From Pirellulaceae bacterium (GTDB taxonomy: Bacteria; Planctomycetota; Planctomycetia; Pirellulales; Pirellulaceae), in NCBI GenBank assembly GCA_020852965.1, contig JADYZV010000131.1, positions 1-64,000 on the forward strand: 64,000 nt of DNA. The letters run 5' to 3'. Shown here piece after piece: positions 7,945 through 32,220 of the stretch. Under the pieces are notes generated by a model. That model made no database searches. It was not told the origin of the DNA and worked only from the letters and a program-made list of their open reading frames with translations. Each line of letters starts with the position of its first letter. Within the stretch, counting starts at the first letter, position 1. A program made the position numbers and the translations under genes.

Positions 7945-9666
7945 ATGCCTGCGAATGTTGCGAGACTGCTGCAGTTGCCCAGTCGGGTAGCACTCTTGAT
8001 GGGGCTGTGCTTGACCTTGTTGGCAAGCGGTTCAGTCCCAATAGCACCGGCGTTGGCTGATGATCCAGCAGCGCAGGCTGCACCTGGCGAGGTGCCGGGT
8101 CAGCCAACCCAAGAGGACTTGCAGCATGCAAGGCAGCTCTATCTCGACCACTGTGCGGGATGTCATGGCGAAAACGGCGGTGGCCTGAGCGTGGCATCGC
8201 AGTATTTGTTTCCACGTCCGCGCGATCTTCGGGCTGGGAAATTTCGGTTGGTGAGCACTCAGAATAATGTTCCCTCGCGACAGGACCTGCACAGTATTCT
8301 GCTGCGTGGTATGCCGGGATCGTCGATGCCTCCTTGGGGGCATTTGTCTCTAGCCGATCGCGAGGCGCTCGTCGACGAAGTCTATCGTCTACGGGCCGAA
8401 GGGGCGCGCGACGAGTACGTTAAGATGCTTCGTGAGATTGAAGGCATCGAGGATGACGAGTTGGAGGACGAAGATGTCCAACAGGAGATTGCAGATTTCG
8501 TGAAGCGGTCGATAGTCGCCGGTGCCAGTAGTGAAGTCCCCAAGTTGGCTGACACCGATCCGGCCTCGATCGCTCGCGGGCACGAGCAATATCTGGCCCA
8601 AGGGTGTGCCCAGTGCCATGGGAATGATGGCAAGGGGGAGAGCAAGATCGCAATGTTCGATGCTGAGAATATGCCCAGTACCGCGCGCGACTTTACGCTA
8701 GGCATTTTTAAAGGAGGGGACGACCCCAGCTCGCTATACCGACGCATCGTGTACGGTATGCCCGGCTCGCCTATGCCTAGTTCCAATCAGTTGACGCCAG
8801 CTCAAGTCAACGACCTAGTCAACTTCATCCGCTCGTTGTCGACTGAAGAGCAACGCAAGGCTGCCGTTCTCAATCGCGAGACGATTCTTGCCAAGCGAAT
8901 CAGGGCTAAGGTTCCTGTACTTCCCGACTCAAACTTGTGGACGGCCAGTGCGCCGGTCCGTCCTCGCGTGGTCCCCCTGTGGTGGCGCAACGGCGTCAAT
9001 CCTGAGCTGAGTATTCAAGCCCTGCATGACGGCACGACCTTGGCTGTTCGGCTTACATGGCGCGACAATAGCGAGAATCAGCAAGCGCTGCGCACTAGCG
9101 ACTTTGAAGACGCGATTGCCATGCAGCTTTTTGATGGAGAGAACGAACCATTCTTGGGAATGGGAAACCATCAGAGCCCCGTTGACATCTGGTACTGGGA
9201 TGCGAATCGACAGACGTTGGGCAAGGGCTACCAAGAGCCGTACCCCAATGAAGTCGTCGACCGCTATCCTCTGACCGAAGGCCCGGTGGTTTCGTTGGAC
9301 ATCGACCGTCCCGGCGCGAGACTGGCCAATCAGTCCGAAGTATCCTTGCCTGCGCTGGCAAGCGGCAACCCAATCGAGACCCAAGTTGGCGACTCGGGCG
9401 CTTCGAGCCTGGCTGCTGCGGGACCGGGAAGTGCAACCTTCCGCTTCCCACAGAGCCGCTTGGTTGTTGCTCAAGGGGTGTGGCGCAAGGGGGAGTGGAG
9501 CGTCGTGATGACACGACCACTGCTGACAAAGTCCGACGATGATGGTGTTTCACTCAAGCCCGGAGCGCGCGTTTCAGCAGCCTTCGCACTGTGGGATGGA
9601 GCGCATCAGGATCGCGCAAGTAAAAAGTCGATCACTATCTGGCAAGATCTGAAACTCGAACAATAA
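7945..9666 (+). CDS. Diheme cytochrome c with C-terminal ethylbenzene-dehydrogenase-type heme domain
   Basis: 573 residues from ATG 7945, which has AGGAA eight bases upstream (an in-frame GTG at 7909 lacks one). Signal peptide about residues 1-35. First heme site HCAGCHGENGGG near residue 70 with Met ligand candidate in GMPGSSMPPWG; second site GCAQCHGNDGKG near residue 222 with GMPGSPMPSS. From about residue 345 to the end the pattern LHDGTTLAVRLTWRD and DAIAMQLFDG resembles the gamma subunit (EbdC/NxrC-like, b-type heme) of type II DMSO-reductase-family enzymes. It opens the operon and stops 30 bases before the catalytic subunit, so it is probably the electron-transfer subunit, periplasmic. 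Fusion of two c-type domains to the gamma domain is noteworthy. Redox direction and partner are not determined by sequence. Confidence 0.85.
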   Translation: MPANVARLLQLPSRVALLMGLCLTLLASGSVPIAPALADDPAAQAAPGEVPGQPTQEDLQHARQLYLDHCAGCHGENGGGLSVASQYLFPRPRDLRAGKFRLVSTQNNVPSRQDLHSILLRGMPGSSMPPWGHLSLADREALVDEVYRLRAEGARDEYVKMLREIEGIEDDELEDEDVQQEIADFVKRSIVAGASSEVPKLADTDPASIARGHEQYLAQGCAQCHGNDGKGESKIAMFDAENMPSTARDFTLGIFKGGDDPSSLYRRIVYGMPGSPMPSSNQLTPAQVNDLVNFIRSLSTEEQRKAAVLNRETILAKRIRAKVPVLPDSNLWTASAPVRPRVVPLWWRNGVNPELSIQALHDGTTLAVRLTWRDNSENQQALRTSDFEDAIAMQLFDGENEPFLGMGNHQSPVDIWYWDANRQTLGKGYQEPYPNEVVDRYPLTEGPVVSLDIDRPGARLANQSEVSLPALASGNPIETQVGDSGASSLAAAGPGSATFRFPQSRLVVAQGVWRKGEWSVVMTRPLLTKSDDDGVSLKPGARVSAAFALWDGAHQDRASKKSITIWQDLKLEQ

Positions 9667-9696
9667 ACCCTCGACCTTCGATCAAGGAATCCTGGC

Positions 9697-12600
9697 ATGA
9701 GTATCTCAAGACGCAATTTTCTTCGCTCCTGTGCTGGCGGCGGTGGAGCCTTGCTGGCGGTCGGAGCACAACCCTGGGCCTTCGATCCGCTACAAGTGGA
9801 GAATCCGTTGGGTGAGTACCCGAATCGCGACTGGGAAAAGGTCTACTTGGATCAATACCAATACGACGATTCCTTCACTTGGATTTGTGCGCCGAACGAC
9901 ACGCACATGTGTCGCCTGCGCGCTTTTACTCGCAATGGAGTGATCCTGCGCAGCGAACAGAACTACGACCATGATCGCTATGGTGATCTGTACGGCAATC
10001 AGGCCACCAAGGCGTGGAATCCGCGAGGTTGTCCCAAGGGTTACACGATGCAGCGGCGAGTGTATGGCCCCTATCGCTTGAAGGGTCCCGTGCTGCGCCA
10101 GGGCTGGAAGGACTGGGTCGATGACGGCTGTCCCTCGCTTTCAGATAATCCCGAATTGCGCACCAAGTACAAGTTCGATGATCGAGGCGGCGATAGTTAC
10201 GTGCGGGTATCGTGGGACCAAGTCAGCAAATATATCGCCGAGGGACTGCATGCGGTTGCCGGGACCTACAGTGGTCCAGCGGGGGCGGAACGTCTACTCA
10301 AGGATGGCTATGAGCCGCGGATGGTCGACATGGTCGAGGGAGCTGGCACACGCGTGTTCAAGTTCGGCTCGAATCTACCCATTCACGGGCTGATTGGAAA
10401 ATTTGGTATCTATCGCTTTGCTAATCTGCTGGCACTACTAGACCATCATGTGCGCGGTGTCCCCGCTGATCAAGCTCGCGGCGGACGGGACTGGAGCGAG
10501 TATACCTGGCGTGGCGATCAGGCCCCCGGACAGCCATTCGTACATGGGTTGCAAGCCTCCGACATGGACTTCAACGACATGCGGTTTAGCAAACTGGTGA
10601 TTCAGGTCGGAAAGAACCTGATCGAAAACAAGATGCCCGAGTCGCACTGGTTGAACGAGTGTATGGAACGCGGTGCAAAACTGGTGGACATCGCTCCGGA
10701 ATATAACGGACCGTCCAGCAAGTCCGACTATTGGATCGGTGTCCGACCTGGGCTGTCCGACCTAGCGGTCCTACTATCCGTCACCAAAATCATGCTCGAC
10801 AACGATTGGTACAAACCCGATTTCTGTCGGCAATTCACCGACTTCCCGCTGTTGGTTCGCACCGACTCGCTCGAGCGTTTGCGTCCCCAGGATGTACAGG
10901 CCGACTATCAACTGCGCGACATCTCCGCAGGGCCAAGCTACAAGATCCAGGGCTTGACCGACGAGCAGCGGCAGAAGATCGGCGATTTTTGCGTATGGGA
11001 TAGCGACGCGAATCGAGTCGCCTTTTTAAGTCGAGACGACGTCGGCGAGCACATGAAGATCAACGCCGCGCTGGCGGGAACGTTCCACGTCCAGCTCACC
11101 GATGGCAAGCAAGTTGAAGTCATGCCGGTCCTTGAAATGTATCGCCAGCACTTAAAGGACTACGACGAGCAGACTGTGTCGGAGATGTCTGGTGCACCTG
11201 CGGAGTTGATACAGCGCTTGGCTCGCGACATCTGGGAAACGACCCAAGCGGGACACCCAGTGTCGATCCACACCGGCGAAGGGATCAACCACTACTTTCA
11301 TGCCACGCTGCACAATCGAGCCAGCTATTTGCCGGTGATGCTAACCGGCAATATCGGCCAACACGGAGCCGGCTCGCACACCTGGGCGGGTAACTACAAG
11401 GGAGCATTGTTTCAAGCCGCCCCTTGGGCAGGACCAGGCGTTGGCAGTTATACTAACGAAGATCCCTTCGCACCGGTACTCGACGAAAATGTCCGCATCA
11501 CCCACGAACACTTGCGGCACACCACCGATGGCGAAGAGCCCTCTTACTGGGCCTGCGGTGAAAAAACACAAACGGTCGAGCTTCCCAATGGCCAGACGCG
11601 TTGCTTCACCGGTAAGACGCACATGCCCACGCCGACCAAGGTGCTGTGGTACAACAACGCCAACTTCCTCAACCAATCGAAGTGGGTCTATAATGTGATC
11701 GTCAACGTCTTACCCAAGATGGACATGATCGTCGACCAACAGATCGAATGGACCGGCAGCGCCGAGTACTCGGATGTTATTCTGCCTGTCAATTCGTGGG
11801 TCGAAATGCAAGACGACGAATGTGGTGGGTCGTGTTCAAACCCCTTTCTACAAATCTGGCGCGGCGGTATCAAGCCTGTCTACGACACGATCGACGATGG
11901 CATGGTGTTTGCCAAAGTCAGCGACGCCTTGACGGCCAAGACGGGCGATCGGCGTTTTGCAGACTACTTCAAGTTCGTGACCGAGGGCAAGTCGAAGATC
12001 TATATCCAACGCGTCTTCGACAATTGCACCACGACGCGTGGGAAAGACGGGCCCTACAACGTCGACAAGTTTATCGCCGGTGAATATGGTGGTGAACCCG
12101 GCGCGGGATTGATGCTCTTCCGCACCTACCCGCGAGTACCGTTTTGGGAACAAATCCACGATTCGATTCCCTTCTACACCGATTGTGGCAGGCTGGCCAG
12201 CTACTGCGACCTGCCCGAAGCGATCGAGTTCGGGGAGAACTTGATCGTGCATCGCGAAGCGGTCGAGGCGACTCCCTATATGCCCAATGTGATCGTTTCC
12301 ACCAGCCCCTTTGTGCGACCGGTAGACTACGGCATCCCCCACGATGCGACCGACGCTGCCCTACGAGAAATTCGCAATATTAAGATGTCCTGGGCAGAGG
12401 CCAAGCTGACCAAGAATCCGCTATGGACCCAAGGCTATCAGTTCTTTTGCTCGACGCCTAAGAGTCGCCACTCGACGCACTCTTCGTGGACCACCGTCGA
12501 TTGGCACTGGATTTTCAGCGACAACTTCGGTGATCCGCATCGCACCGATAAACGCTCTCCCGGTGTCGCGGATCGGCAAATCCAAATGAGTCCGCAAGCG

Positions 12601-13164
12601 GCCCATGACGCTGGGTTGAAGGAGGGGGACTACGTGTGGGTCGACGCGGATGAAAACGATCGGCCCTATATCGGTTGGAAGGACGACGCAGGCCCGCGAC
12701 ACAAGGCGTTCCGCTGTATGGTTCGCGTTAAGCTCAATCCGGGACTCCCCTACAACTTCACGATCATGAAACATACGGGCTGGATCGCCAGCGAACGTTC
12801 TGTGAAAGCTCACGAAACTCGTCCCGATGGTCGCGCGATCGCCGCTGAAACCGGCTATCAATCGAGCTACCGCTACGGCTCGCACCAGAGCATCACCCGC
12901 AATTGGATGATTCCGATGCACCAGACCGACACGCTGTTCCACAAAAAAGTAGGATCGATGGGCTTCATGTTTGGATACGGCATAGACAATCATGCTATCA
13001 ATACTGTTCCCAAGGAAACCTTGATACGCATTACCAAGGCCGAGGATGGTGGCATCGATGGGGTGGGGGCATGGAAACCAGGTGAGTCGCAATTCAGCCC
13101 CGCCAGCCAGGCCGCACAGAACCAGCAGTATCTCAGTGGTGGTTTTGTGAAGGTCCAGACATAA
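9697..13164 (+). CDS. Tat-exported molybdopterin oxidoreductase, NxrA/NarG-like catalytic subunit (type II DMSO reductase family)
   Basis: 1155 residues, ATG with AAGGAA upstream. The N-terminus SRRNFLRSCAGGGGALL is a twin-arginine signal, so the folded enzyme is exported. Residues about 63-75 (WICAPNDTHMC) and NPRGCPKG provide a C-x3-D-x3-C plus Cys set placed like the FS0 iron-sulfur site of NarG-type enzymes. YTWRGDQAPGQPF holds Asp274, a candidate molybdenum ligand at the position of the NarG aspartate, followed by SDMDFNDMRFSKL and GKNLIENKMPESHW. These stretches look most like nitrite oxidoreductase alpha subunits of Nitrospira/anammox type and related periplasmic nitrate, chlorate and selenate enzymes. 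The gene sits between the cytochrome subunit and a small unknown gene, with the beta subunit and chaperone downstream. Substrate is undetermined. Confidence 0.88.
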   Translation: MSISRRNFLRSCAGGGGALLAVGAQPWAFDPLQVENPLGEYPNRDWEKVYLDQYQYDDSFTWICAPNDTHMCRLRAFTRNGVILRSEQNYDHDRYGDLYGNQATKAWNPRGCPKGYTMQRRVYGPYRLKGPVLRQGWKDWVDDGCPSLSDNPELRTKYKFDDRGGDSYVRVSWDQVSKYIAEGLHAVAGTYSGPAGAERLLKDGYEPRMVDMVEGAGTRVFKFGSNLPIHGLIGKFGIYRFANLLALLDHHVRGVPADQARGGRDWSEYTWRGDQAPGQPFVHGLQASDMDFNDMRFSKLVIQVGKNLIENKMPESHWLNECMERGAKLVDIAPEYNGPSSKSDYWIGVRPGLSDLAVLLSVTKIMLDNDWYKPDFCRQFTDFPLLVRTDSLERLRPQDVQADYQLRDISAGPSYKIQGLTDEQRQKIGDFCVWDSDANRVAFLSRDDVGEHMKINAALAGTFHVQLTDGKQVEVMPVLEMYRQHLKDYDEQTVSEMSGAPAELIQRLARDIWETTQAGHPVSIHTGEGINHYFHATLHNRASYLPVMLTGNIGQHGAGSHTWAGNYKGALFQAAPWAGPGVGSYTNEDPFAPVLDENVRITHEHLRHTTDGEEPSYWACGEKTQTVELPNGQTRCFTGKTHMPTPTKVLWYNNANFLNQSKWVYNVIVNVLPKMDMIVDQQIEWTGSAEYSDVILPVNSWVEMQDDECGGSCSNPFLQIWRGGIKPVYDTIDDGMVFAKVSDALTAKTGDRRFADYFKFVTEGKSKIYIQRVFDNCTTTRGKDGPYNVDKFIAGEYGGEPGAGLMLFRTYPRVPFWEQIHDSIPFYTDCGRLASYCDLPEAIEFGENLIVHREAVEATPYMPNVIVSTSPFVRPVDYGIPHDATDAALREIRNIKMSWAEAKLTKNPLWTQGYQFFCSTPKSRHSTHSSWTTVDWHWIFSDNFGDPHRTDKRSPGVADRQIQMSPQAAHDAGLKEGDYVWVDADENDRPYIGWKDDAGPRHKAFRCMVRVKLNPGLPYNFTIMKHTGWIASERSVKAHETRPDGRAIAAETGYQSSYRYGSHQSITRNWMIPMHQTDTLFHKKVGSMGFMFGYGIDNHAINTVPKETLIRITKAEDGGIDGVGAWKPGESQFSPASQAAQNQQYLSGGFVKVQT

Positions 13165-13243
13165 CGAAGCCTCGTACGGAAAGAAACTGTCCTAGCCACG
13201 TTCGCCAGAACGCGGACTCCCTGCATATTCCAAGGAAGAACTC

Positions 13244-13612
13244 ATGTCCGAAATGCCACCCAACCCAACTCCTAAGATCCATCCCGCCACACGGGAAATA
13301 TTGCCTGAGGATCCGATGGAGATGTTTGCCATGGAGATACCGGGTGATCCCAACTTCATGCTGCAACTGTTGGTCGAAGAGTACGCTCGGATGGGGTGGG
13401 GGTTGGAGGATCTCATGCGACTGGCGCGAGACCCCAATTACAGCTCATTCCATGGCTTGTTCCAGCGTTTCGGAGAAGACAAGCTGCGCGAGCGCATGAG
13501 TACGATCTTGAGTCGTTGCGGAGTCATCCGCGCTACGAGCTACGAAGCACCCGCTGCACCCGCTGCACCCGCTGCACCCCAAGGACTGGTCCAAATCAGT
13601 TCGCCAAAGTAA
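13244..13612 (+). CDS. Small protein of unknown function between the alpha and beta subunits
   Basis: 122 residues, ATG with AAGGAAG eight bases upstream. No signal peptide or cofactor motif. The core (about residues 35-92) is helical: DPNFMLQLLVEEYARMGW, LEDLMRLARDPNYSSFHGL, FGEDKLRERMSTILSRCGV. The tail repeats PAA three times (EAPAAPAAPAAP). The position between catalytic and iron-sulfur subunit genes, where other type II DMSO-reductase operons have nothing, suggests an assembly factor or extra subunit, but this is inferred from context only. Similar small helical proteins seem to occur in planctomycetes generally, so a wider role is possible. Confidence 0.75.
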   Translation: MSEMPPNPTPKIHPATREILPEDPMEMFAMEIPGDPNFMLQLLVEEYARMGWGLEDLMRLARDPNYSSFHGLFQRFGEDKLRERMSTILSRCGVIRATSYEAPAAPAAPAAPQGLVQISSPK

Positions 13613-13684
13613 GAGAAGACTCCGGACTCTTGGCGAGTTCGGCTACCTGCGCAACCAGTTTTAACGTTGATAGGGAAAGTAGTC

Positions 13685-14980
13685 ATGCCTGAAGTATTCA
13701 ATTGGCAAATCGGACGCCAGATGAGCTATCCTCATGAGGAACGCCATCCAAAAATGCAGTTCGCGTTTGTGTTCAACACGAACCGTTGCATCGGTTGCCA
13801 GACCTGTACCATGGCTTGCAAGAGCACTTGGACCCATTCCAAGGGGCAGGAGCTGATGTGGTGGAACAATGTCGAGACCAAGCCCTACGGTGGCTATCCG
13901 CAACACTGGGACAGTAAACTGTTGACGATGTTGGAAGAGGCCAATCCGGGCGAACAGGTTTGGGATGCGCGCGAAAAAGACCCCGATCGCAAGCCGTACG
14001 GCGAGTTCAAAGGGAAGACAATTTTCGAAGCGGCCGATACCAAGCCGCGTCCAGATGGACCTCAGGCTGCGCTGGGCTATCTACCCACCGACGAAGAGTG
14101 GCGTTCACCGAACATCCACGAGGACACGGCGACCTGCAAGTCGGCGCCGGCCAAAGATGAGTACGGTGGTGGCACCACGTTGCCCGAGCATCGCGTGTGG
14201 TTCTTCCACTTGGCGCGAATCTGTAACCACTGCACCTATCCGGGTTGCCTCGGGTCTTGCCCGCGCAATGCGATCTACAAACGCCCCGAAGATGGAGTCG
14301 TGTTGATCGATCAAAGTCGCTGTCGTGGCTATCGCAAGTGCGTCGAAGGTTGTCCCTATAAGAAAGCCATGTATCGCCCGACGACTCAGACCAGCGAAAA
14401 ATGCATTGCTTGCTTACCTCGCATCGAAGGCAAGGATCCTACCATAAGCCCCACCGGTGCACCGGCGGAGACGCGCTGCATGACGTCCTGTGTGGGAAAA
14501 ATACGGCTGCAGGGCTTGGTTGAGATCGACGATGACGGACTGTGGGCCAAGCGCCCCGACAACCCGCTCTACTATCTGATTCGAGAACGCGAAATTGCGC
14601 TCCCTTTGTATCCACAATTCGGAACCGAGCCCAACGGCTTCTACATTCCGCCACGCTGGGTCAACCGAGACTATCTAACCCAGATGTTTGGCCCTGGCGT
14701 ACAGGGCGCGATCGAGCAGTACAGTTGTCCCGATCGCGAGCTGCTAGCCGTGCTGCAACTCTTCCGAGCACAGCAACAAATACTCTTCCGATTTGCTATC
14801 GAACAGGGCCCGAAAGTGGGTGAGATTGAAGTCACCATGCCCGATGGTACATCCAAGACACAAGAGCTGTTTAACGACACGATCATGGGCTACAACAAAT
14901 TCGATGAAGAAGTTGTGCGTATTACGGTCCAGGAGCCAACTTTCGAACGGCCTGCGGACATCCATGTCAACTCCATTTAG
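13685..14980 (+). CDS. Iron-sulfur beta subunit, NxrB/NarH-like
   Basis: 431 residues from ATG 13685; the in-frame TTG at 13667 is rejected because GGGA precedes the ATG. Carries electrons between the molybdenum subunit and the cytochrome. Four cluster motifs are visible: CIGCQTCTMACK (C-x2-C-x2-C-x3-C); CNHCTYPGCLGSCPR; CRGYRKCVEGCPYKK, where Tyr replaces the second Cys so a 3Fe-4S cluster is expected as in NarH-type proteins; and KCIACLPRIEG with RCMTSCVGKIR. There is no signal peptide, so it would be exported together with the Tat-bearing alpha subunit, as established for this enzyme family. It follows the small 122-residue gene and precedes the chaperone gene. Confidence 0.92.
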   Translation: MPEVFNWQIGRQMSYPHEERHPKMQFAFVFNTNRCIGCQTCTMACKSTWTHSKGQELMWWNNVETKPYGGYPQHWDSKLLTMLEEANPGEQVWDAREKDPDRKPYGEFKGKTIFEAADTKPRPDGPQAALGYLPTDEEWRSPNIHEDTATCKSAPAKDEYGGGTTLPEHRVWFFHLARICNHCTYPGCLGSCPRNAIYKRPEDGVVLIDQSRCRGYRKCVEGCPYKKAMYRPTTQTSEKCIACLPRIEGKDPTISPTGAPAETRCMTSCVGKIRLQGLVEIDDDGLWAKRPDNPLYYLIREREIALPLYPQFGTEPNGFYIPPRWVNRDYLTQMFGPGVQGAIEQYSCPDRELLAVLQLFRAQQQILFRFAIEQGPKVGEIEVTMPDGTSKTQELFNDTIMGYNKFDEEVVRITVQEPTFERPADIHVNSI

Positions 14981-15115
14981 CAACGCATCGGCGAACGATC
15001 GGTGAGCAATTTGAGCGAGTAAGTTGAGAGACACGATCGGCGGAGCGATCGGCGACTGAATTACAAATCCGTGAACGGTTTCCTTTTTACATGTAACGCA
15101 TAGACAGGTCCAATC

Positions 15116-15979
15116 ATGACGACTCATACCGCTAGCGACCCCATGTCCCGCGCACCGCTGGATGCGACACCGCCTGGCGCTGAGACCCTGGACGACATGA
15201 CCCTGAATATGGCTCGGCAATCGCTCTATCGCTTTGCCGCGCTGACGCTATTGGATCCGAGATTCAATGCTTGGAAGCGTCTGCAATCGCTGCGCAATGA
15301 TCCGCTGCTGAGCGAAGCGGTTGCCGTCGTGCGAGAGTCCGAAACGGCTCGGGCGACGGAATTGGGCTTAGGCGAACTCGGCTTGGCGCAGCTTGATCTG
15401 GCGCAAGTTTGGGAGCGTTTCCCCAGCAGTGAAGCACAGCTCAACGCCCAATATGAGCGCACCTTTGGGCTGCTCGTTTCAGCCGCATGTCCACCCTACG
15501 AAACCGAGTACATCAACAGCAAATATACCTTTCAGCGTAGCCAGACACTTGCCGACGTGAGTGGTTACTATCGGGCATTCGGACTGACCACCTCGTCGAC
15601 AAGCGCGGAGCGACCGGACCATATCGTTTTAGAACTCGAATTCATGGCTTTTCTGTTGGGCAAGGAGCGTCAGGCTTACGAGGATCGTGAATCGCTCGAG
15701 CGACGGTCGCACCTGGATGTTTGTCGTCGCACTCAGAGGCGATTTCTAAGTGAACACCTCTCTGTTTGGGCGAGCCTCTTTGCCAAGCTCGTGCAGCGCG
15801 AAAACCCAGGTGGATTCTATGAAGCCGCAGGAATCTTCCTGGCAGCATTGATCCCCGCCGAACGCGGTATATTGGCTGTGGCAGTTCCCGACCGCCGCCC
15901 CGCTGCGCCAAGCCAAATCGAACCGCTCGATGCCTGCGACGGTTGTCAATTGCACGGTGATCCACAACTGGGAACTTAA
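15116..15979 (+). CDS. TorD/NarJ-family molybdoenzyme chaperone
   Basis: 287 residues, ATG 15116 (another in-frame ATG at 15143). Family members bind the apo catalytic subunit, guard its Tat signal and help cofactor insertion in the cytoplasm. Visible hallmarks are QYERTFGLLVSAACPPYETEY, LADVSGYYRAFGL and RPDHIVLELEFMAFLLGKE in the expected order (residues about 108-185), all in a helical protein. The last 30 residues end in DACDGCQLHGD, a Cys pair not typical of the family. Gene position after the beta subunit matches the delta subunit gene of EbdABCD- and SerABDC-type operons. The dedicated client is presumably the alpha subunit at 9697. Confidence 0.85.
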   Translation: MTTHTASDPMSRAPLDATPPGAETLDDMTLNMARQSLYRFAALTLLDPRFNAWKRLQSLRNDPLLSEAVAVVRESETARATELGLGELGLAQLDLAQVWERFPSSEAQLNAQYERTFGLLVSAACPPYETEYINSKYTFQRSQTLADVSGYYRAFGLTTSSTSAERPDHIVLELEFMAFLLGKERQAYEDRESLERRSHLDVCRRTQRRFLSEHLSVWASLFAKLVQRENPGGFYEAAGIFLAALIPAERGILAVAVPDRRPAAPSQIEPLDACDGCQLHGDPQLGT

Positions 15980-15985
15980 CAAACA

Positions 15986-16034
15986 GTAGCACGGTGGTCC
16001 CCGCCGTGATTTACGGTGGGGGCCACCGTGCCAC
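15986..16034. repeat. Inverted repeat, GTAGCACGGTGGTCCCC family
   Basis: The left arm at 15986-16002 pairs with 16018-16034 (15 of 17 bases complementary), separated by 15 bases. It lies in the 80-base gap between the chaperone gene and the monoheme gene. Related arms occur at 37862-37877 with 37931-37946 and at 61433-61517. No T-tract follows, so it is not a classical terminator. Confidence 0.75.
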
Positions 16035-16059
16035 GTTACCCCTCTTCTTCTAGGAGCTA

Positions 16060-17364
16060 ATGATGCGAGACCTCAGACTTCCGTTGGTGGTGACACTTGC
16101 CGTACTTGGAGTATTGGCGGAATCGGCTTGGCTATTGGCACAGGATTTCGATCGATCTCCCATTCGCTACAGCGAAAGTACGCCTGCCAATGCGATCTCT
16201 CGCTTGCAGGAGCGTTTGGATTCCGGCCAAACGAAACTGACACACGACCCTGCGCACGGCTATCTGGTCTCTGTGCTGAAAGCGTTGGAGATAGACATCG
16301 ACTCGCAGACGTTGGTCTTTTCAAAGAGCAGTGTACAAGCGCGGTATATTTCTCAGAAAACTCCACGCGCGATCTACTTCTCGGACGACGTCTACTTGGG
16401 GTGGCCCCAGTCGGGCAATGCCTTGGAAATCTCCGCTGTCGACCCGCAACTGGGTGCCGTGTTCTATACGTTGGACCAATCACCGACCGACAATCCGAAA
16501 TTTACACGTCAAGGTGATGCCTGCCTCAATTGTCACAGTGCCGCACGAATCGGTGGTATCCCTGGACATATTGTGCGCTCACATATCGTCGACGAAGGTG
16601 GCCACGTCATTCCGTCTGCGGGAATTGTCGACGTCGACTACACAACTCCGCTAGCGAAGCGTTGGGGAGGTTGGTATGTCACCGGCACCAGCGGCGCGCA
16701 GGCCCATTTGGGGAACTTCTTTGCGCGTGGCTATCAAGGTCCCGATCCGATCGACAATTCCGCAGGTGAGAACGTGACCAGTCTGGAGGATCGATTCGAT
16801 GTGAAGCCCTACCTTAGCCCAACCAGTGATATTGTCGCATTGATGGTCATGGAATATCAAGCGCTAGCCGAAAACCGCATGACTCGTGCCAATTTTGTCA
16901 CGCGGCAGGCACTGGATCTTGACCAGCAATTCCCGCGTCCGGCCGGCCAGGAAGAAGGGACGCTTTTACCCACTACCATACGAACCATCCAACGCGCGGG
17001 GGACGAGCTGGTAGACGCACTTTTGTTTGTCGGTGAAGCAAAACTGACGGCGCCTATTAAAGGTGTATCTGGGTTCTCCGAATCCTTCGCTCGCAAAGGT
17101 CCACGCGACGGAAGTGGTCGTTCACTACGCGAGTTTGACTTAAATCAGCGGTTATTCCGCTATCCATGCAGCTATCTAATCTACTCCGATTCCTTCAACC
17201 AACTCCCAACCGAAGTGCGCGATTATGTATGGCAGCAGTTGGCCGATATATTAACTGCCGAAAAACCACCTGAAAAATTTAGTCATCTTTCGGCAGGTGA
17301 CCGCCAAGCTATTGTCGAGATTCTGCGCGATACCATTGCCGACCTACCCAAGAGCTTTCAGTAG
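16060..17364 (+). CDS. Exported monoheme c-type protein, last gene of the molybdoenzyme cluster
   Basis: 434 residues; ATG at 16060 or 16063, both after TAGGAG. A hydrophobic segment near residues 7-27 (LVVTLAVLGVLAESAWLLA) is a signal peptide or anchor. One heme site, DACLNCHSAARIGG, is near residue 156, followed by IPGHIVRSHIVDEGG, LAKRWGGWYVTGTSG and HLGN; near the C-terminus RYPCSYLIYSDSFNQLP. These patterns recur in a family of secreted cytochrome-like proteins whose job is not known to me. Position 80 bases after the chaperone gene and in the same direction suggests a role in the same respiratory chain, although the inverted repeat between them could separate transcription. Confidence 0.72.
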   Translation: MMRDLRLPLVVTLAVLGVLAESAWLLAQDFDRSPIRYSESTPANAISRLQERLDSGQTKLTHDPAHGYLVSVLKALEIDIDSQTLVFSKSSVQARYISQKTPRAIYFSDDVYLGWPQSGNALEISAVDPQLGAVFYTLDQSPTDNPKFTRQGDACLNCHSAARIGGIPGHIVRSHIVDEGGHVIPSAGIVDVDYTTPLAKRWGGWYVTGTSGAQAHLGNFFARGYQGPDPIDNSAGENVTSLEDRFDVKPYLSPTSDIVALMVMEYQALAENRMTRANFVTRQALDLDQQFPRPAGQEEGTLLPTTIRTIQRAGDELVDALLFVGEAKLTAPIKGVSGFSESFARKGPRDGSGRSLREFDLNQRLFRYPCSYLIYSDSFNQLPTEVRDYVWQQLADILTAEKPPEKFSHLSAGDRQAIVEILRDTIADLPKSFQ

Positions 17365-25996: not shown

Positions 25997-28900
25997 ATGG
26001 ACACACGAATACAATTGCGAATCGCCCAGGTGGCTCGTCGGTTGCGATCGGTTCGTATCGGTTGGAGCCTAGCTGGTATTTGGCTGCTGGCATCGTTATG
26101 CGGTTGGTCCCTGATCTTTGCCATTCGTAGCGGTGTACCGACAATTCTCATGCAGAGCCTTTCCGGCACTGCCTCCCGTGAACGGGTTATCCTCTGGTGG
26201 CTGGGCGCATCGTTGTTGGCTGCCGTTGTGATCGTCGTGCTCTATTACTATCGTAGGCCCAACTACTCGCAAGTCGTGCAGCGGCTTGAGCGGCACTTTC
26301 CCGAACTCGAACAACGCCTCCTCACCGCATCTCAAATCCAGCTCGATATGTCCGCTCGGCCTATGGGTTATCTGCAACGCTGCGTTATTTCCGAAGCCAT
26401 TCATCATGACGTACACCATGGTTGGCTTTCATTGGTTTCGTCTTGGCGAATTGCCCTGGCGCGGTTGGTTAATTTCGCCGCGCTGCTATGCCTACTTGCT
26501 ACCGCATGGGTGTTGTGGAAGATGCCGGAGAGTACTCTGCTCACGAGTGCTCTCGCCAATATGTCCAATCGTGGAGCGTTGTCCGCTGCGATCGTCGAGC
26601 CGGGCGATATTGAGATCGAACGCGGCACAAGTCTCATTGTTACGGCGAAGTTTGATCAGCAGGTTCCCGATGAAGTGTGGTTGGTTCACCATCGAGATAT
26701 CGGGGCTGTCAATCGCAGTTCAACGCAAACACCGGTGGATGACGCTGTGGGTAGCGGTGCGGTTGGTGAAGTGCGGCTTCGCATGAGACCATCGCTCGAT
26801 GACCCCATCTTTGCCGCCTATCTGGTTGATGTAAAAGAGCCGTTGAACTACCGTGTCGAATATGGAGCAGCCACATCCGCCACGTATCGCGTCGAAGTTT
26901 TCGATGTACCGGCACTCGTGCGGGCCGACGCAGAATTGGTTTATCCCGAATACACTCAGCAGCCACCGCGCACGGTACTCGACACGCGGCGTATCACCGT
27001 CGCTGAGGGGACACATGTTACCTGGAAGCTACAGCTCAACAAACCGATGGCCATTGCCGAATTGCTGCCAGACGAAGGGGAGCCGATTCGATTGCTTGCG
27101 ACGGAGGACGCACCTACCGTCGTACAGACCAGCATGGTGTTGTTGGAAGATCAGCAGTGGTTAGTACGCCTCGTCGACTCGGAGGGTCGCAGCAATGCGA
27201 TCGAGATCAAGCTGCGGGCTACCGTGCTGCCCAACGAGTCAGCCAAGATCCAATTGTTGGCTGGCGGCGATGCGCGTGTTTCACCCATCGAAGAGTTTGA
27301 TATATCGGCTAAAGTGAGCGATGATTTTGCAGTGATGGCAGCCGGGATTGGCTATCAGATCGGCGGCGAGGAACCGGTTGAGTTAACGGCAATCGAGCTC
27401 GACGTGGAGAGCAGGCAAGCGACGTTCACTCAGCGTATCGACTTGGAGGAGTTGGCTGCACAAGCCAATCAACTGCTGTCGTACTATGTATGGGCCGAGG
27501 AGCGCGGGGATGATGGCCGACCGCGCCGCACCGAGAGCGAGATGTATTTCGTCGAAGTCCGCCCCTTCGAAGAGATTTTTCGCGAAGGCGACGCGCCGCC
27601 CAGCGGCCAGCAACAACAGCAGCAACAAGCGGGTAATCAACAGACCGAAGAACTGTTAGAACTCCAGAAACAGATCGTCATCGCGACATGGAATTTGCTA
27701 CGCGCAAGTCGTCAGGCGGAATTGCCTGAGGGCGTAGCTAGCGATTTGGATTTGCTGGTCGAATCACAAGCCAATGCGGCCGCATTGCTCGAAGAAAAAG
27801 CAGCCGAATTGGCGACTGAGGAACTACAACCCATCATCGAGCGGGCGGCTCTGAGTATGCAGGCGGCCATCGCGGGCTTGACTTCCGCGCGGCAAACGCT
27901 GGCCAAGCCTGAGCTGAGTGGAGCGCTCACGCACGAACAGGCCGCCTACCAAGCGCTATTGCAATTGCAAAGTCAAGAGTACGAAGTGGTGCGTGGACAG
28001 CAATCGCCATCACAATCCTCGTCCAGCCGCTCGCAGTCGCGTCAGGCTCAACTCGATCAATTGGAACTCAACAACGAAGAGAGTCGCTACGAGGACGAGC
28101 GCTTGGCACAATCTCAAGAGGACGAGCAGCAGGGCGAACTGCGGCAAGTCATCAGCCGCTTGCGCGAACTGGCCGCTCGCCAGGAGGACTTCAACGAACA
28201 ACTGCGCGAGTTGCAAGCGGCTCTGCAAGTCGCCGAGACACCCGAGCAGCGCGAGGAGCTGCAACGACAACTCGAACGCCTGCGCGAACAGCAACAGCAA
28301 ATGCTTGCCGATAGCGATGAACTCAGTGAACGCATGCAGAGCCCCGACAACCAAGCTATGCAGGAAGCTCAACAGGAGATGCAGCAAGCTCGCGACAATA
28401 TGCAGCGCGCCAGTGAGGCACTTCAACAGGACCAGCCGAGCCAAGCTCTGGCAGCGGGCACGCGCGCAGAACAACAACTCAAGGAATTGCAAGATGAAGT
28501 GCGACAGCAAGCAGCCAATCAATTCCAGGAGTCGATGCAAGACATGCAACGGCAAGCGTCCGAGCTGGAGCAACGACAGGCCGAATTGGCACACAGGCTG
28601 AGCGGCCAGTCCGACAATGAGCAAGACCCCCAGCTTTCCGCTGGATTGCGTGCCGACGAACCCGAGCAGCAGGAGACTACCGAACAACTTCGCGAGCAAC
28701 AGGCCGATTTAAAGGAACTATTGCAGGAGATGCAAGAAACAGTCACCGAGTCCGAGGAGGCGGAGCCGCTGTTGGCTCAACGTTTGTATGACAGCTACCG
28801 CAAAACTCAACAAGCCAAAGCGCTGGAACGACTGCAAGTCACCGAGCAATTGATCGAACGCAATTTGCAACAGCCCGCAAGCGAGTTGGCCAAAGAGTCT

Positions 28901-29698
28901 GCTGAGGACCTGAGCCAGCTTCGTGAAGAGATTGATCGCGCCGCTGAAGCTGTACTTGGAAGCGACATCGAATCGCTGCGACAGGCGCTCCGCAAGCTTG
29001 ACGAACTATCCGCTGCGCTGGATCAGGAACTGCCGAATGAGGCGGATCAACCAAGTGAATCAGGGCAAACCGATCCAAGCAAACCGAGTAGTCAAGCGGA
29101 AGAAACAGAACAGGAAGGCCAAGCGAACCAGTCAAGTCGAGAGAGTCAGTCAGGTCAGTCAGGTCAGCCAGGTCAGTCAGATCAGTCAGATCGACAAGAA
29201 CAGGCGAGTCAAACTGGTCAGCCCAATCGCACAGGTGAGGCCGCTCAGTCTAGTGGCGCGCAGCAACCCAATGGCTCGCAGCAACGATCGCTTTCCGATT
29301 TACTGAGACAATCCGCATCCCAATCGCAGCCGAGTGAAACCTCAAGGCAGACGGGCGGACCGCTGACCGGTGATGGCTTTCGAGAGTGGTCGGATGGTTT
29401 GCGCGATGTGGAGGAATTGGTTGCCGACGCGGAGCTTCGCTGGCAAGCGACTGAGATCCGTCAAGCGGCTCGCGAGCTGCGAACGGAGATGAAGCGTCAA
29501 ACGGCTGAGCCGCAATGGGACGAGGTGCGAGAGCTGGTGGCGGTTCCGCTGCGCGAACTGAAACGCAAAGTGGCTGACGAATTGGTGCGGCGCGCGGCTG
29601 ACAAGTCGCAAATTGTACCGCTCGATCGCGATCCAGTTCCCGATGAGTTTAGCCGAGGCGTACGGCAATACTTCGAGAATTTGGGGAGTGGGCAGTAG
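25997..29698 (+). CDS. Large membrane protein with Gln-rich coiled coil, DUF4175-like
   Basis: 1233 residues, ATG 25997 with GGAGGA ten bases upstream. Membrane segments about residues 23-40, 57-75 and 150-170, then a periplasmic beta-rich part with Ig-like repeats (about 190-520). From about residue 530 to 1100 the sequence is Gln/Glu-rich and helical (for example LQKQIVIATWNLLRAS, REDFNEQ-like EDFNEQLRELQAALQVAE), strong coiled coil. Residues about 1020-1120 are low complexity, driven by a 9-base GGTCAGTCA-type microrepeat near 29150-29190. The architecture matches DUF4175-like proteins of MoxR operons in Planctomycetes and Bacteroidetes. Stop and next start overlap by one base. Confidence 0.78.
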   Translation: MDTRIQLRIAQVARRLRSVRIGWSLAGIWLLASLCGWSLIFAIRSGVPTILMQSLSGTASRERVILWWLGASLLAAVVIVVLYYYRRPNYSQVVQRLERHFPELEQRLLTASQIQLDMSARPMGYLQRCVISEAIHHDVHHGWLSLVSSWRIALARLVNFAALLCLLATAWVLWKMPESTLLTSALANMSNRGALSAAIVEPGDIEIERGTSLIVTAKFDQQVPDEVWLVHHRDIGAVNRSSTQTPVDDAVGSGAVGEVRLRMRPSLDDPIFAAYLVDVKEPLNYRVEYGAATSATYRVEVFDVPALVRADAELVYPEYTQQPPRTVLDTRRITVAEGTHVTWKLQLNKPMAIAELLPDEGEPIRLLATEDAPTVVQTSMVLLEDQQWLVRLVDSEGRSNAIEIKLRATVLPNESAKIQLLAGGDARVSPIEEFDISAKVSDDFAVMAAGIGYQIGGEEPVELTAIELDVESRQATFTQRIDLEELAAQANQLLSYYVWAEERGDDGRPRRTESEMYFVEVRPFEEIFREGDAPPSGQQQQQQQAGNQQTEELLELQKQIVIATWNLLRASRQAELPEGVASDLDLLVESQANAAALLEEKAAELATEELQPIIERAALSMQAAIAGLTSARQTLAKPELSGALTHEQAAYQALLQLQSQEYEVVRGQQSPSQSSSSRSQSRQAQLDQLELNNEESRYEDERLAQSQEDEQQGELRQVISRLRELAARQEDFNEQLRELQAALQVAETPEQREELQRQLERLREQQQQMLADSDELSERMQSPDNQAMQEAQQEMQQARDNMQRASEALQQDQPSQALAAGTRAEQQLKELQDEVRQQAANQFQESMQDMQRQASELEQRQAELAHRLSGQSDNEQDPQLSAGLRADEPEQQETTEQLREQQADLKELLQEMQETVTESEEAEPLLAQRLYDSYRKTQQAKALERLQVTEQLIERNLQQPASELAKESAEDLSQLREEIDRAAEAVLGSDIESLRQALRKLDELSAALDQELPNEADQPSESGQTDPSKPSSQAEETEQEGQANQSSRESQSGQSGQPGQSDQSDRQEQASQTGQPNRTGEAAQSSGAQQPNGSQQRSLSDLLRQSASQSQPSETSRQTGGPLTGDGFREWSDGLRDVEELVADAELRWQATEIRQAARELRTEMKRQTAEPQWDEVRELVAVPLRELKRKVADELVRRAADKSQIVPLDRDPVPDEFSRGVRQYFENLGSGQ

Positions 29699-32220
29699 TG
29701 TTCGAATCCCTAATGTTTGGTGCCTACGATTGGCTGTGGATCGCCGTGGTGCTGGCCGCGGCTGTCAGCCTGCTGGCGCTGTGGAGCTATCTCGGTCGAC
29801 GGCGGGTGACCGCAAGCAGTTTTACCGCGATGTTGCTCAAGTGTGTGGCAGTCGCGGCTCTTGCCTTTTGTCTGCTCGAACCACAGGTACGAATTGAGCG
29901 TCCGCGACGTGGTGCCAATATCTTAGCTGTCATGGTAGACAGCAGTCGCAGTATGCAGATCCGCCCATCCGGATCCACTCATAGTCGCGCAGAAGGCCTG
30001 CGTCCCTGGCTGCGAACCAAGTCGGCCTGGCAGACTCGGGCGGCGCAGGATTTTGAAGTACGTCGCTATCGCTTTGACCAGCATCTGCAGTCGGTGCCAG
30101 AGTTAGAAGAGCTCGACTTCACTGGTCAACACTCGGCGCTGGCCAGTTCGCTCGACACCTTGCACTCGCGTTTTGCACAGCGCAGCGTAGCTGGGACATT
30201 GTTGTTCACCGATGGTCTGGCTACCGATGATGTCGAACGTGTGCTTCAGAAAGGTGATTTCCCATTCCCACTCTATCCAGTAATCGAGAGTGCAGCACGC
30301 TCGCTGAGGGACATTTCACTCAGCCACACTTCGGTTTCGGTCTCTCCCTTTGAATTGGCACCCGCCCGTGTCGAGGCCAGTTTGGCCGTTCAAGGGCTAT
30401 CTGGCCGCGACGTCGTCGTGAGCTTGCTTGCCGCCGATGGAAGCTCGCTCGAACAGCAACGCTTCACCGTCGACGACGATCCATTCGAACGCAAAGTCCG
30501 GTTTCAGTTCCAGCCATCGGAACCTGGTTTGCAGTTTGTCGAATTGCGGGCGCAACTGGCTAGTGAAATGGCTGCGGTGGCAAAAGCTACAAGCACGGAT
30601 GTGGTTCACTCGAATTCTCGATCGGAAACCACCAATCCGACGTGGAGCGTCGGGCCACATTCACGATCGGCAACTTCCAATCCGACGCGGAGCGTCGGGC
30701 CACATTCATCCTTGGCAGCGACCCAACCTCGATCATTTGACTTCAATCGCACTGAGGTCGTCAGCCGGGTCGAAGCCTCGACGGCCAACAATCGCTGCGT
30801 GGTGGCCGTAGATCGTGGCGGTGGGCCGTATCGGATTCTATACGTCTCGGGCAGACCGAATTGGGAATATAAATTCATCCGTCGAGCGCTGGAGGAAGAT
30901 ATCGAATTGCAATTTCATGCGCTGGTCCGCATCGCCAAGAAAGAAGCCAAGTTTAGCTTTGGCGATCGAGTGGTCGAATCGGCCAACCCACTCAAGGCTG
31001 GTTTTAGCGACGATGAAGAGACGGTCGAGCAGTACGACGAACCGGTCCTGCTGCGAATTGGTGAGGGAGCGGCCGAAGCGCTCCAGGCAGGCTTTCCCAG
31101 CGGGGCCGAAGACCTGTTTGCGTATCATGCGATCATCCTGGACGATGTCGAGGCGCGTTTCTTTACGCAACAACAAATGCTGCTCGTGCGACAGTTCGTG
31201 GCCGAGCGTGGCGGTGGACTGCTGATGCTCGGTGGGCAAGAGAGCTTTCTCGGCGGTGGCTATCGCGACACGCCGATCGGAGAAGTCCTGCCGGTCTACC
31301 TACGCGGTGAGGAGTCTGTCGAGGATAAAACACAAGCGGTTTGCTATCGACTAACTCGCGGCGGGGCGCTGGAACCATGGCTGCGACTGCGGACAGTGCA
31401 GGCGGACGAAGCCAAACGCTTTGAGGAAATGCCGGAGTTTTTGACTTGGAATGTGGTCTCTGGAACCAAACCGGGGTCGGAATTGTTGGCCGAGTTGAGC
31501 CGTGGTAGTGGAGGTTCGCAACCTGCGTTGGTTTCGCAGCGTTTTGGCAAAGGTCGCACGCTGGCTCTATTAGTTGGTGATTTTTGGCGCTGGAGCATGC
31601 GACGTGCCTCGCTCGACACCGACGACTTGGCGCAGAATTGGCGACAGATCGCACGCTGGTTGACGAGCGACGTGCCGCGACGCGTACAGATCGAAATTGT
31701 TCCGCCGACCGATCCGCAGCAGCCTCATCGACTGAACATCGTACTGCGCGACGCCGGCTTCCAACCGCTCGACAATGCCAACGTTCGATTGACTGTCACC
31801 GAGCCCGATGGTCGCGTGGTCGAAGTACAGGCGCAACCCGACTCGGTGCGGCGAGGACACTATGTAGCGGACTACTGGTCGGCTCTCGATGGCGGATATC
31901 GTTGCGAGATCGAGTCCGCCAGCCCTGACGGCCAATCGCTTGAAATGCTGCAAAGCGGCTGGACTGCGCAGCCTAGCGCTGCTGAGTTTGCGCGCGTCGA
32001 GCCAGATACCGCACTGCTCGAAAGATTGGCGCAAGCCTCTGGGGGCGAAGTGGTGGAGCTTAACAATCTCGATTCGTTTGTAACGTCGCTTCCCACGCGT
32101 CGCGTACCGCAAACCGAAGTGCGCATCGAACCGCTGTGGCATCAACCCTGGCTGATTGCGTTGGCCATCGGTTGCCTCTGCCTCGAGTGGGGCTTGCGCC
32201 GCTGGAAGGGGTTAGCATGA
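29698..32220 (+). CDS. Membrane-anchored VWA / glutamine-amidotransferase-like protein
   Basis: 840 residues, GTG 29698 overlapping the previous stop by one base. Two N-terminal membrane segments (WIAVVLAAAVSLLALWSYL; MLLKCVAVAALAFCLLE), then a VWA-like domain with MVDSSRSMQIRPS (D-x-S-x-S). After residue about 380, YRILYVSGRPNWEYKFIRR and FVAERGGGLLMLGGQESF with GGGYRDTPIGEVLPV match the amidotransferase-like domain of these proteins; a last membrane segment (WLIALAIGCLCLEWGL) is at the C-terminus. Residues 308-337 are two 15-residue copies of an inserted palindromic repeat (30619-30708). Part of the MoxR operon; overlaps the next gene by ATGA. Confidence 0.83.
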   Translation: MFESLMFGAYDWLWIAVVLAAAVSLLALWSYLGRRRVTASSFTAMLLKCVAVAALAFCLLEPQVRIERPRRGANILAVMVDSSRSMQIRPSGSTHSRAEGLRPWLRTKSAWQTRAAQDFEVRRYRFDQHLQSVPELEELDFTGQHSALASSLDTLHSRFAQRSVAGTLLFTDGLATDDVERVLQKGDFPFPLYPVIESAARSLRDISLSHTSVSVSPFELAPARVEASLAVQGLSGRDVVVSLLAADGSSLEQQRFTVDDDPFERKVRFQFQPSEPGLQFVELRAQLASEMAAVAKATSTDVVHSNSRSETTNPTWSVGPHSRSATSNPTRSVGPHSSLAATQPRSFDFNRTEVVSRVEASTANNRCVVAVDRGGGPYRILYVSGRPNWEYKFIRRALEEDIELQFHALVRIAKKEAKFSFGDRVVESANPLKAGFSDDEETVEQYDEPVLLRIGEGAAEALQAGFPSGAEDLFAYHAIILDDVEARFFTQQQMLLVRQFVAERGGGLLMLGGQESFLGGGYRDTPIGEVLPVYLRGEESVEDKTQAVCYRLTRGGALEPWLRLRTVQADEAKRFEEMPEFLTWNVVSGTKPGSELLAELSRGSGGSQPALVSQRFGKGRTLALLVGDFWRWSMRRASLDTDDLAQNWRQIARWLTSDVPRRVQIEIVPPTDPQQPHRLNIVLRDAGFQPLDNANVRLTVTEPDGRVVEVQAQPDSVRRGHYVADYWSALDGGYRCEIESASPDGQSLEMLQSGWTAQPSAAEFARVEPDTALLERLAQASGGEVVELNNLDSFVTSLPTRRVPQTEVRIEPLWHQPWLIALAIGCLCLEWGLRRWKGLA
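30619..30708 (+). repeat. In-frame 45-bp tandem palindromic repeat inside a VWA gene
   Basis: Two 45-base units, 30619-30663 and 30664-30708, encode RSETTNPTWSVGPHS and RSATSNPTRSVGPHS. Each holds a hairpin: CCGACGT-gga-GCGTCGG at 30637-30653 and the perfect CCGACGC-gga-GCGTCGG at 30682-30698. The length keeps the reading frame. It lies between the VWA-like and amidotransferase-like parts, so probably in a tolerant linker. Confidence 0.9.

Follow-up and report, generated by a model that had tools for sequence, protein, structure and literature searches.

A nitrite oxidoreductase-type operon with a linked 122-aa gene in a Pirellulales planctomycete outside the anammox order

The enzyme closest to the system described here is the nitrite oxidoreductase (NXR) of the anaerobic ammonium-oxidizing (anammox) bacterium Kuenenia stuttgartiensis (PDB 7b04, PMC8387239). 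This enzyme runs in both directions; Asp275 is its molybdenum ligand, the ligation of its FS0 cluster has been described, a substrate-coordinating role has been proposed for Asn70, and Met155 and Lys305 of NxrC are haem ligands. NXR has also been described in Nitrospina, where alternative NxrC proteins join c-haem sites to a haem-b domain, and known NXR clusters carry a bd-like oxidase, cupredoxins and separate haem c proteins (PMC3578206). Nitrate reduction by NarG, a distant cousin of the enzyme examined here, has been inferred for Thermogutta terrifontis on the basis of its genome (PMC5673643). For a set of planctomycete metagenome-assembled genomes (MAGs) from an Oslofjord tunnel, PMC10732223 proposes its genes as putative NXR and leaves the direction unresolved, so that NXR-type genes in non-anammox Planctomycetota are already published.

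Here, we analyzed a stretch of 64,000 nucleotides of a Pirellulaceae bacterium (assembly GCA_020852965.1, contig JADYZV010000131.1, positions 1 to 64,000), referred to below as the window. Its positions 7945-15979 carry, on the + strand and in this order, genes for a gamma subunit, an alpha subunit, a 122-aa protein, a beta subunit and a chaperone. Judged by homology, this is a real NXR-type operon, of a known kind but from a lineage not yet characterised. We consider it very probable that it encodes a periplasmic NXR-type nitrate/nitrite oxidoreductase in a member of the Pirellulales, an order that the host shares with T. terrifontis and that is not the anammox order. For one tightly linked component, the 122-aa protein, we found no description.

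Alpha, beta and gamma subunits compared with described enzymes

The alpha and beta subunits were compared against all solved structures in the PDB. The alpha catalytic subunit (9697-13164, + strand, 1155 aa), identified by homology and trees, matched Kuenenia NxrA (7b04_B) with 1469 bits over residues 1-1154 (E = 0), and the next solved matches were PcrA (181 bits), EbdA (115 bits) and E. coli NarG (103 bits). The beta iron-sulfur subunit (13685-14980, + strand, taken from its first ATG; the open frame begins at a TTG at 13667) matched Kuenenia NxrB (7b04_A) nearly end to end, with 548 bits and E = 1.6e-163, and its cysteine motifs align to those of NxrB. By these scores, the likeness of alpha and beta to the solved Kuenenia NXR is far above chance. 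The sequence-only reading that first drew attention to the operon had judged the alpha motifs to be closest to NXR and had recognized a beta subunit with cluster motifs, and both judgements agree with these matches.

The residues that would carry the chemistry are also shared with the Kuenenia enzyme. Asp274 of alpha (10516-10518) is the equivalent of the molybdenum ligand Asp275, Asn67 (9895-9897) is the equivalent of Asn70, and Cys64, Asp68, Cys72 and Cys112 (9886-10032) form the same 3Cys/1Asp ligand set for FS0. We examined these positions in 124 distinct alpha sequences, covering at least about 1050 query residues. Asp274, whose loss the sequence-only reading had named as a reason to abandon its view, was present in 124/124, as were Asn67, Cys64, Cys72 and Cys112, and position 68 held Asp in 117/124 and Cys in 7. 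The alpha subunit starts with the twin-arginine motif SRRNFL, in keeping with the export by the twin-arginine translocation (Tat) pathway claimed earlier, and paired arginines at residues 5-6 were found in 9/9 aligned rows. There was no signal on beta; signals on both subunits were judged by eye, with no predictor.

The gamma subunit (7945-9666, + strand; Pfam EB_dh 89 bits, Cytochrom_C 63, CBB3 59) had been described beforehand as a cytochrome with a gamma-type domain. The gamma-type domain stands, and the description is corrected to two cytochrome c domains, with CxxCH motifs at 8152 and 8605, fused ahead of a C-terminal EB_dh haem-b domain; a signal peptide was recognized by eye. An alignment of the haem-b domain with Kuenenia NxrC (7b04_C; E 2.9e-16) pairs Met407 (9160-9162) with the axial ligand Met155 and Lys562 (9625-9627) with the second ligand Lys305. 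The locus thus shares with Kuenenia NXR near full-length alpha and beta subunits, Mo-Asp, Asn, FS0 and the Met/Lys haem b, and it differs in the two fused c-haem domains of gamma and in the 122-aa gene that follows alpha. The gamma architecture itself is not new, since the alternative NxrC proteins of Nitrospina contain similar fusions (PMC3578206).

Two CxxCH motifs before EB_dh were present in 20/21 rows with a gamma in the group of loci whose alpha is at least 70% identical to ours. In this count L067 shows a single CxxCH owing to the early start of its profile match, L039 and L070 derive from one MAG, and three short or cut loci (L071, L074 and L084) gave no gamma. Many proteobacterial and actinobacterial relatives have no c-haem part (exceptions, L079 and L080). 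The c domains of gamma match PDB 6h5l_B, a cytochrome of unstated function, with 92 bits, and a literature search for the code 6H5L gave no paper. A diheme protein of the Kuenenia nxr cluster, Kustd1711, has haems near +350 mV (PMC11791136).

Downstream of beta lies a TorD/NarJ-type molybdoenzyme chaperone (15116-15979, + strand; Pfam Nitrate_red_del 77 bits), which also matches the type II chaperone model TIGR03482 with 69 bits, under its cut-off of 152. No NarI-like cytochrome was seen in the operon, which has a gamma of EB_dh type instead and in this differs from NarGHI. The chaperone and this absence are both as the sequence-only reading had them. NarGHI, EbdABC and PcrAB share the type II family of enzymes with a molybdenum bis-molybdopterin guanine dinucleotide (Mo-bisMGD) cofactor, but reach only 103-181 bits in alpha. 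We therefore think it very unlikely that the enzyme acts on another substrate of the type II dimethyl sulfoxide reductase family, such as chlorate or perchlorate, selenate or a hydrocarbon, as ClrA, PcrA, SerA and EbdA do. The subunit plan of those enzymes is identical, and the generic NCBIfam models of type II alpha, beta, gamma and chaperone were the top family matches here, all of them under cut-off. However, the alpha score to NxrA is about 8 times that to PcrA and more than 12 times that to EbdA (SerA and ClrA were not compared), Asn67 is kept where ethylbenzene dehydrogenase has Ile (PMC8387239), and some relatives' loci have neighbours related to N-oxides.

Subfamily placement and distribution

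The sequence-only reading had suggested a tree of alpha subunits as the check on its NXR assignment. We built two, both without Nitrospira, SerA and ClrA sequences. The first was a quick tree (LG+C20, posterior mean site frequency) of 83 of the 124 alpha sequences, left after thinning; the second, careful tree had 45 rows, namely 44 of those 83 and E. coli NarG as the outgroup. The window alpha fell in the NXR branch in both. In the 83-row tree this branch held 75 rows, including family f46 and Nitrospinota, with a Shimodaira-Hasegawa-like approximate likelihood ratio support of 100, and a separate pNar-like clade held a second copy from our own genome and the copy of genome G167, which we take to be T. 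terrifontis. Judged by eye from its position and neighbours, the latter would be the predicted NarG THTE_1509 beside genes of a bc complex. In the 45-row tree, support was 100/100 for the NXR branch (35 rows) and 100/98 for a clade of 19 rows that contains the window alpha and leaves out anammox and Nitrospinota sequences. The exact root is unsure because the branch to E. coli NarG is very long (7.3). We take family f46 to be anammox because one of its sequences matches Kuenenia NxrA with 2390 bits.

The nearest enzymes of known function in the trees are NXRs. Alpha identity is about 56% to anammox-family NXR and 53-54% to complete Nitrospinota copies, which share the NXR branch and form a separate, well-supported clade. 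In contrast, identity to the pNar-like clade within Pirellulales is 38-40%; that clade is distinct in both trees, and although it has the type II plan, Mo-Asp and Asn in common with our locus, its gamma has c-haem motifs before EB_dh in 0/5 loci. The own-genome member of this clade, on contig C111 (68377-71826; 8365-11958 of locus L037, - strand), is a second type II alpha, 39% identical to the first and accompanied by a beta, an EB_dh gamma and a chaperone of its own. Upstream of that set and on the opposite strand lies a stretch that looks by eye like an alternative-complex-III operon (12776-19998 of L037). We also observed alphas of 50-51% identity in four family f77 genomes of 2.0-2.5 Mb (G138, G182, G206 and G228; for example locus L054). 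Of all NXR-type sequences in the 83-row tree, the single f77 member is the first to branch off. The family is possibly another early NXR lineage; the G138 copy has an in-frame TAA.

Closer relatives are planctomycetes. Among the best 80 of 574 relatives listed, the nearest alphas in named collections come from Planctomycetota MAGs (78-83% identity), several of which are titled Pirellulales or Pirellulaceae, including the Oslofjord tunnel MAGs OFTM39 (L059, 82%) and OFTM22 (L063, 81%) of PMC10732223. These belong to the same lineage as the window alpha. The words diheme, gamma subunit, chaperone and hypothetical are all absent from the main text of that article, supplements aside, and for this reason we take the small gene and the gamma fusion as undiscussed there. 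A further MAG, ERR599109_bin11 (L081; L159 in the trees), which lies outside the Nitrospina NxrA cluster in PMC10839748, falls in the clade of the window alpha.

Homologues of alpha at E ≤ 1e-100 were present in 86/392 Planctomycetota genomes, anammox and pNar-like ones included. Within the Pirellulales, 42/396 genomes had a homologue, 30 of them NXR-type (at least 55% identity) and 12 pNar-like only. The earlier remark that such an enzyme would be notable outside the anammox group stands as far as the host is concerned; the gene type is less rare than that remark implied, both by these counts and by what PMC10732223 had already published. A search of plasmids for alpha gave one distant match, from Natronococcus (36%).

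We also weighed a binning or assembly error that brought the operon in from another organism, and find it extremely improbable. In its favour, an NXR-type alpha was missing from 7/7 other genomes drawn from the same genus (one of which, G629, has a pNar-like one), the operon genes had no match in the stretches around the downstream tetratricopeptide repeat (TPR) gene in 10/10 relatives, and the assembly has an estimated contamination of 3.6%. But the contig around the operon is 127.8 kb long, host-like genes flank the operon on either side, the G+C content is even over the window (0.51-0.59), and numerous genomes of Pirellulales and of other Planctomycetota contain the same operon. Homologues of the TPR gene immediately downstream occur in 13/15 genomes of the genus, our own included, and the block TPR-DUF4159-MoxR-DUF58-BatA was found, whole or in part, in 8/10 relatives. 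For the upstream 3-deoxy-D-arabino-heptulosonate 7-phosphate synthase, which had a match in 35 of 100 genomes compared within the family, the nearest copies were 71% identical in two genomes of the same genus and 72% in one of another genus. Since the flanking genes are host-like and the G+C content is even, misbinning is unlikely, and we read the operon as a lineage-specific gain or retention.

The 122-aa gene between alpha and beta

The sequence-only reading named subunits that are all present, but it overlooked the gene at 13244-13612 (+ strand), between alpha and beta, whose 122-aa product has no Pfam or NCBIfam match. Searches by tblastn and an iterated profile (51 of 105 matches were used in the alignment) found relatives of this gene adjoining alpha in most NXR-type loci. 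We counted linkage within 1.5 kb for the 113/124 alphas with at least 1.2 kb of downstream sequence, grouped by identity and not by tree. The gene was linked in 20/23 loci at 70% identity or above, 27/31 at 60-69% and 17/27 of the others at 55-59%. By contrast, the count was 0/13 for the anammox family, 0/10 for Nitrospinota, 0/1 for f77 (48% identity) and 0/8 for pNar-like loci; the anammox flank covered beside alpha was about 1.5 kb for 12 loci and 6.4 kb for one. Misses include early-start or broken frames: of the three misses at 70% identity or above, tblastn does give a match in L060 and L039 but not in L074. In L058 and L062 a RIC gene sits between alpha and the 122-aa gene.

A profile search of 396 Pirellulales genomes, taken from their matching identifiers to be the same draw as for the alpha count, detected the family in 26. 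Each of these has an NXR-type alpha that shares a contig with the 122-aa gene, the two being 17-390 bp apart. The gene was thus present in 26/30 genomes with an NXR-type alpha, compared to 0/366 others, which include the 12 pNar-only genomes (0/12). The association has a Fisher p of 7e-37, a value that ignores the relatedness of the genomes. Three of the four exceptions (G419, G449 and G456) are on contigs of 3.2-3.4 kb that carry only part of alpha. The fourth, G445, has an 11.5 kb contig that runs on past alpha with no 122-aa gene; it appears to be locus L074, in which neither the 122-aa gene nor a beta was found and a chaperone frame follows alpha.

An AlphaFold model of the protein has four helices (mean pLDDT 84, pTM 0.58). 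A fold search returned 129 matches at E ≤ 10 and none at E ≤ 0.001 (best E, 2.0), a sequence search of the PDB gave a single match (E 0.71), and no cofactor motif was seen by eye. No description of the gene was found in the literature, supplements and closed literature being outside the search. Most likely, the 122-aa protein serves alpha and beta specifically, as an assembly factor or a structural partner. We also considered a broader and rather doubtful possibility, in which the gene would mark a third functional class of periplasmic NXR across many phyla (Planctomycetota, Pseudomonadota, Acidobacteriota, Kiritimatiellota, Actinomycetota and others). Such a class would be used by heterotrophs for facultative nitrite oxidation, would need its own maturation or structural subunit, and would be distinct from the NXR of dedicated nitrite oxidizers and of anammox bacteria.

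Direction of the reaction and genome context

What we infer about the substrate, localisation, electron path past gamma, direction and the 122-aa protein can be put together as follows. The TorD-type chaperone would help to load Mo-bisMGD into alpha, alpha and beta would be exported together via Tat, with the 122-aa four-helix protein as their partner, and gamma would follow the Sec route. Nitrite and water, or nitrate, would react at the molybdenum, with Asp274 as its ligand and Asn67 on the opposite side. From FS0, two electrons would then pass through the clusters of beta to the Met/Lys haem b of gamma and on to its two c-haems, which would link to a periplasmic cytochrome c pool and from there to aa3 or cbb3 oxidases. 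In reverse flow, a bc-type complex would supply the electrons. We regard the enzyme as probably reversible, and sequence alone does not decide the direction of the reaction. For the net direction we lean slightly toward facultative nitrite oxidation as an extra electron source, at roughly even probability, and rank nitrate respiration below it, with a probability somewhat short of even.

The genome also encodes a NapA-like protein (862 bits; cut-off, 904), a NasC-like protein (790 bits; cut-off, 1100), two aa3-type COX1 proteins (574 and 657 bits; cut-off, 671), a fused cbb3 CcoN/CcoO above cut-off and a qNor-type NorB (L144, from Pfam). No NirK was found above cut-off in the genome; cytochrome cd1 and NrfA were not searched for. 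The sole weak match to a copper nitrite reductase (49.8 bits; cut-off, 296.3) scores best as a multicopper oxidase and was set aside. The HZS_alpha domain PF18582 was above cut-off in 13 stretches, on contigs C148, C90, C111, C119 and C23, several of them clustered on C148 and C90; an anammox affiliation on this ground was rejected, as a single domain is no proof of hydrazine synthase.

Neighbours of the operon in relatives were surveyed by tblastn (E ≤ 1e-6) in 100 loci and the window. A quinol-type nitric oxide (NO) reductase lies near the operon in L057, the closest relative, and in L064, and a match in L073 covers only 31 residues. RIC-type repair proteins occur in 8 distinct loci of the 100 (9 rows; L043 and L098 are one MAG), the Mo-cofactor protein MobB in 6 relatives' loci, and Rrf2-type regulators in 20 rows, mostly with weak scores. 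None of these four was found in the window. Neighbours of the N-oxide type make the context point to nitrogen oxides, not to a direction. In Proteobacteria we also observed a radical SAM protein within about 1.7 kb after gamma (L101, L102, L104-L106, L108-L110, L112 and L125); a relative of this protein is encoded close to the operon in L065 and L067, and its role is possibly in haem biosynthesis.

Several observations weigh against an enzyme that oxidizes nitrite, or against its being marked as an NXR by sequence features. The Mo-Asp, Asn and FS0 residues are common to the pNar-like sequences too, and the top solved match of the pNar-like paralogue on C111 is also NxrA (909 bits), for which reason we rejected the NxrA score as a sole criterion for NXR. 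Residues and scores shared with the pNar-like type therefore support the chemistry, and the subfamily split rests on the trees. In those trees, the clade of the window stands apart from the included enzymes of nitrite oxidizers, and no member of it is known to be characterised. No accessory genes of nitrite oxidizers were named by Pfam in 20 open reading frames (ORFs) of the window, the rest of the genome being outside that search; in place of separate haem c proteins, gamma carries its two fused c-haem domains. The NO reductase and RIC genes near the operon in some relatives are at least as consistent with anaerobic nitrate reduction. Finally, the two RuBisCO-family proteins (C51:5547-6377, 214 bits; C19:3970-4680, 109 bits) look RuBisCO-like and non-carboxylating by eye, and no carboxylating RuBisCO was seen, while the reductive tricarboxylic acid cycle and other CO2-fixation pathways were not searched for. 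Autotrophy via RuBisCO was set aside on this reading by eye. The C51 gene is directly followed by a 489-aa gene that resembles, by eye, a four-carbon sugar-acid kinase.

In a rival reading, the enzyme would act in vivo as a periplasmic respiratory nitrate reductase: at low oxygen, a bc-type complex would deliver electrons to alpha by way of the fused c-haems of gamma, with nitrite as the product. We give this reading a little less than an even chance. The RuBisCO-like proteins, the relatives' NO reductase and RIC genes, the qNor-type protein of our own genome, the nitrate reduction inferred for Thermogutta and the Thermogutta-type paralogue with the same catalytic residues all speak for it. 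However, NapA-like and pNar-like enzymes are already in the genome, the closest enzymes of known function in the trees are NXRs, no copper nitrite reductase was above cut-off, and the window itself has neither NO reductase nor RIC.

The sequence-only reading had drawn the cluster from 7945 to 17364. The part from 7945 to 15979 stands, and the gene at 16060-17364 (+ strand), downstream of the chaperone and encoding 434 aa with one CxxCH, is a neighbour whose membership of the system is not supported. We place it outside the system because it has no Pfam or NCBIfam family, nor a match in a PDB sequence search, and tblastn at E ≤ 1e-4 gave no match to it in 100 stretches from relatives, some of which lack that flank. 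A scan for promoters and terminators gave 4 and 10 sites, compared to 5.5 and 9.7 in shuffled sequence. Elsewhere in the window, AT skew rises to 0.226 at positions 28001-30000, a strong value next to the range of -0.06 to 0.10 in all other 2 kb steps; this part lies inside an ORF of 1233 aa (25997-29698, + strand) with no Pfam match.

In summary, our analysis points to a periplasmic NXR-type enzyme in a planctomycete lineage outside the anammox order, with facultative nitrite oxidation as the direction toward which we lean slightly. NxrA genes are used to count nitrite oxidizers in metagenomes. Should some of the NxrA counted in this way stem from non-autotrophic planctomycetes with an enzyme of this lineage, such counts may misjudge nitrite oxidation or miss a guild of facultative nitrite oxidizers. 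As a simple marker, the 122-aa gene linked to alpha tells this lineage apart from the NXR of the anammox bacteria and Nitrospinota in our comparison.

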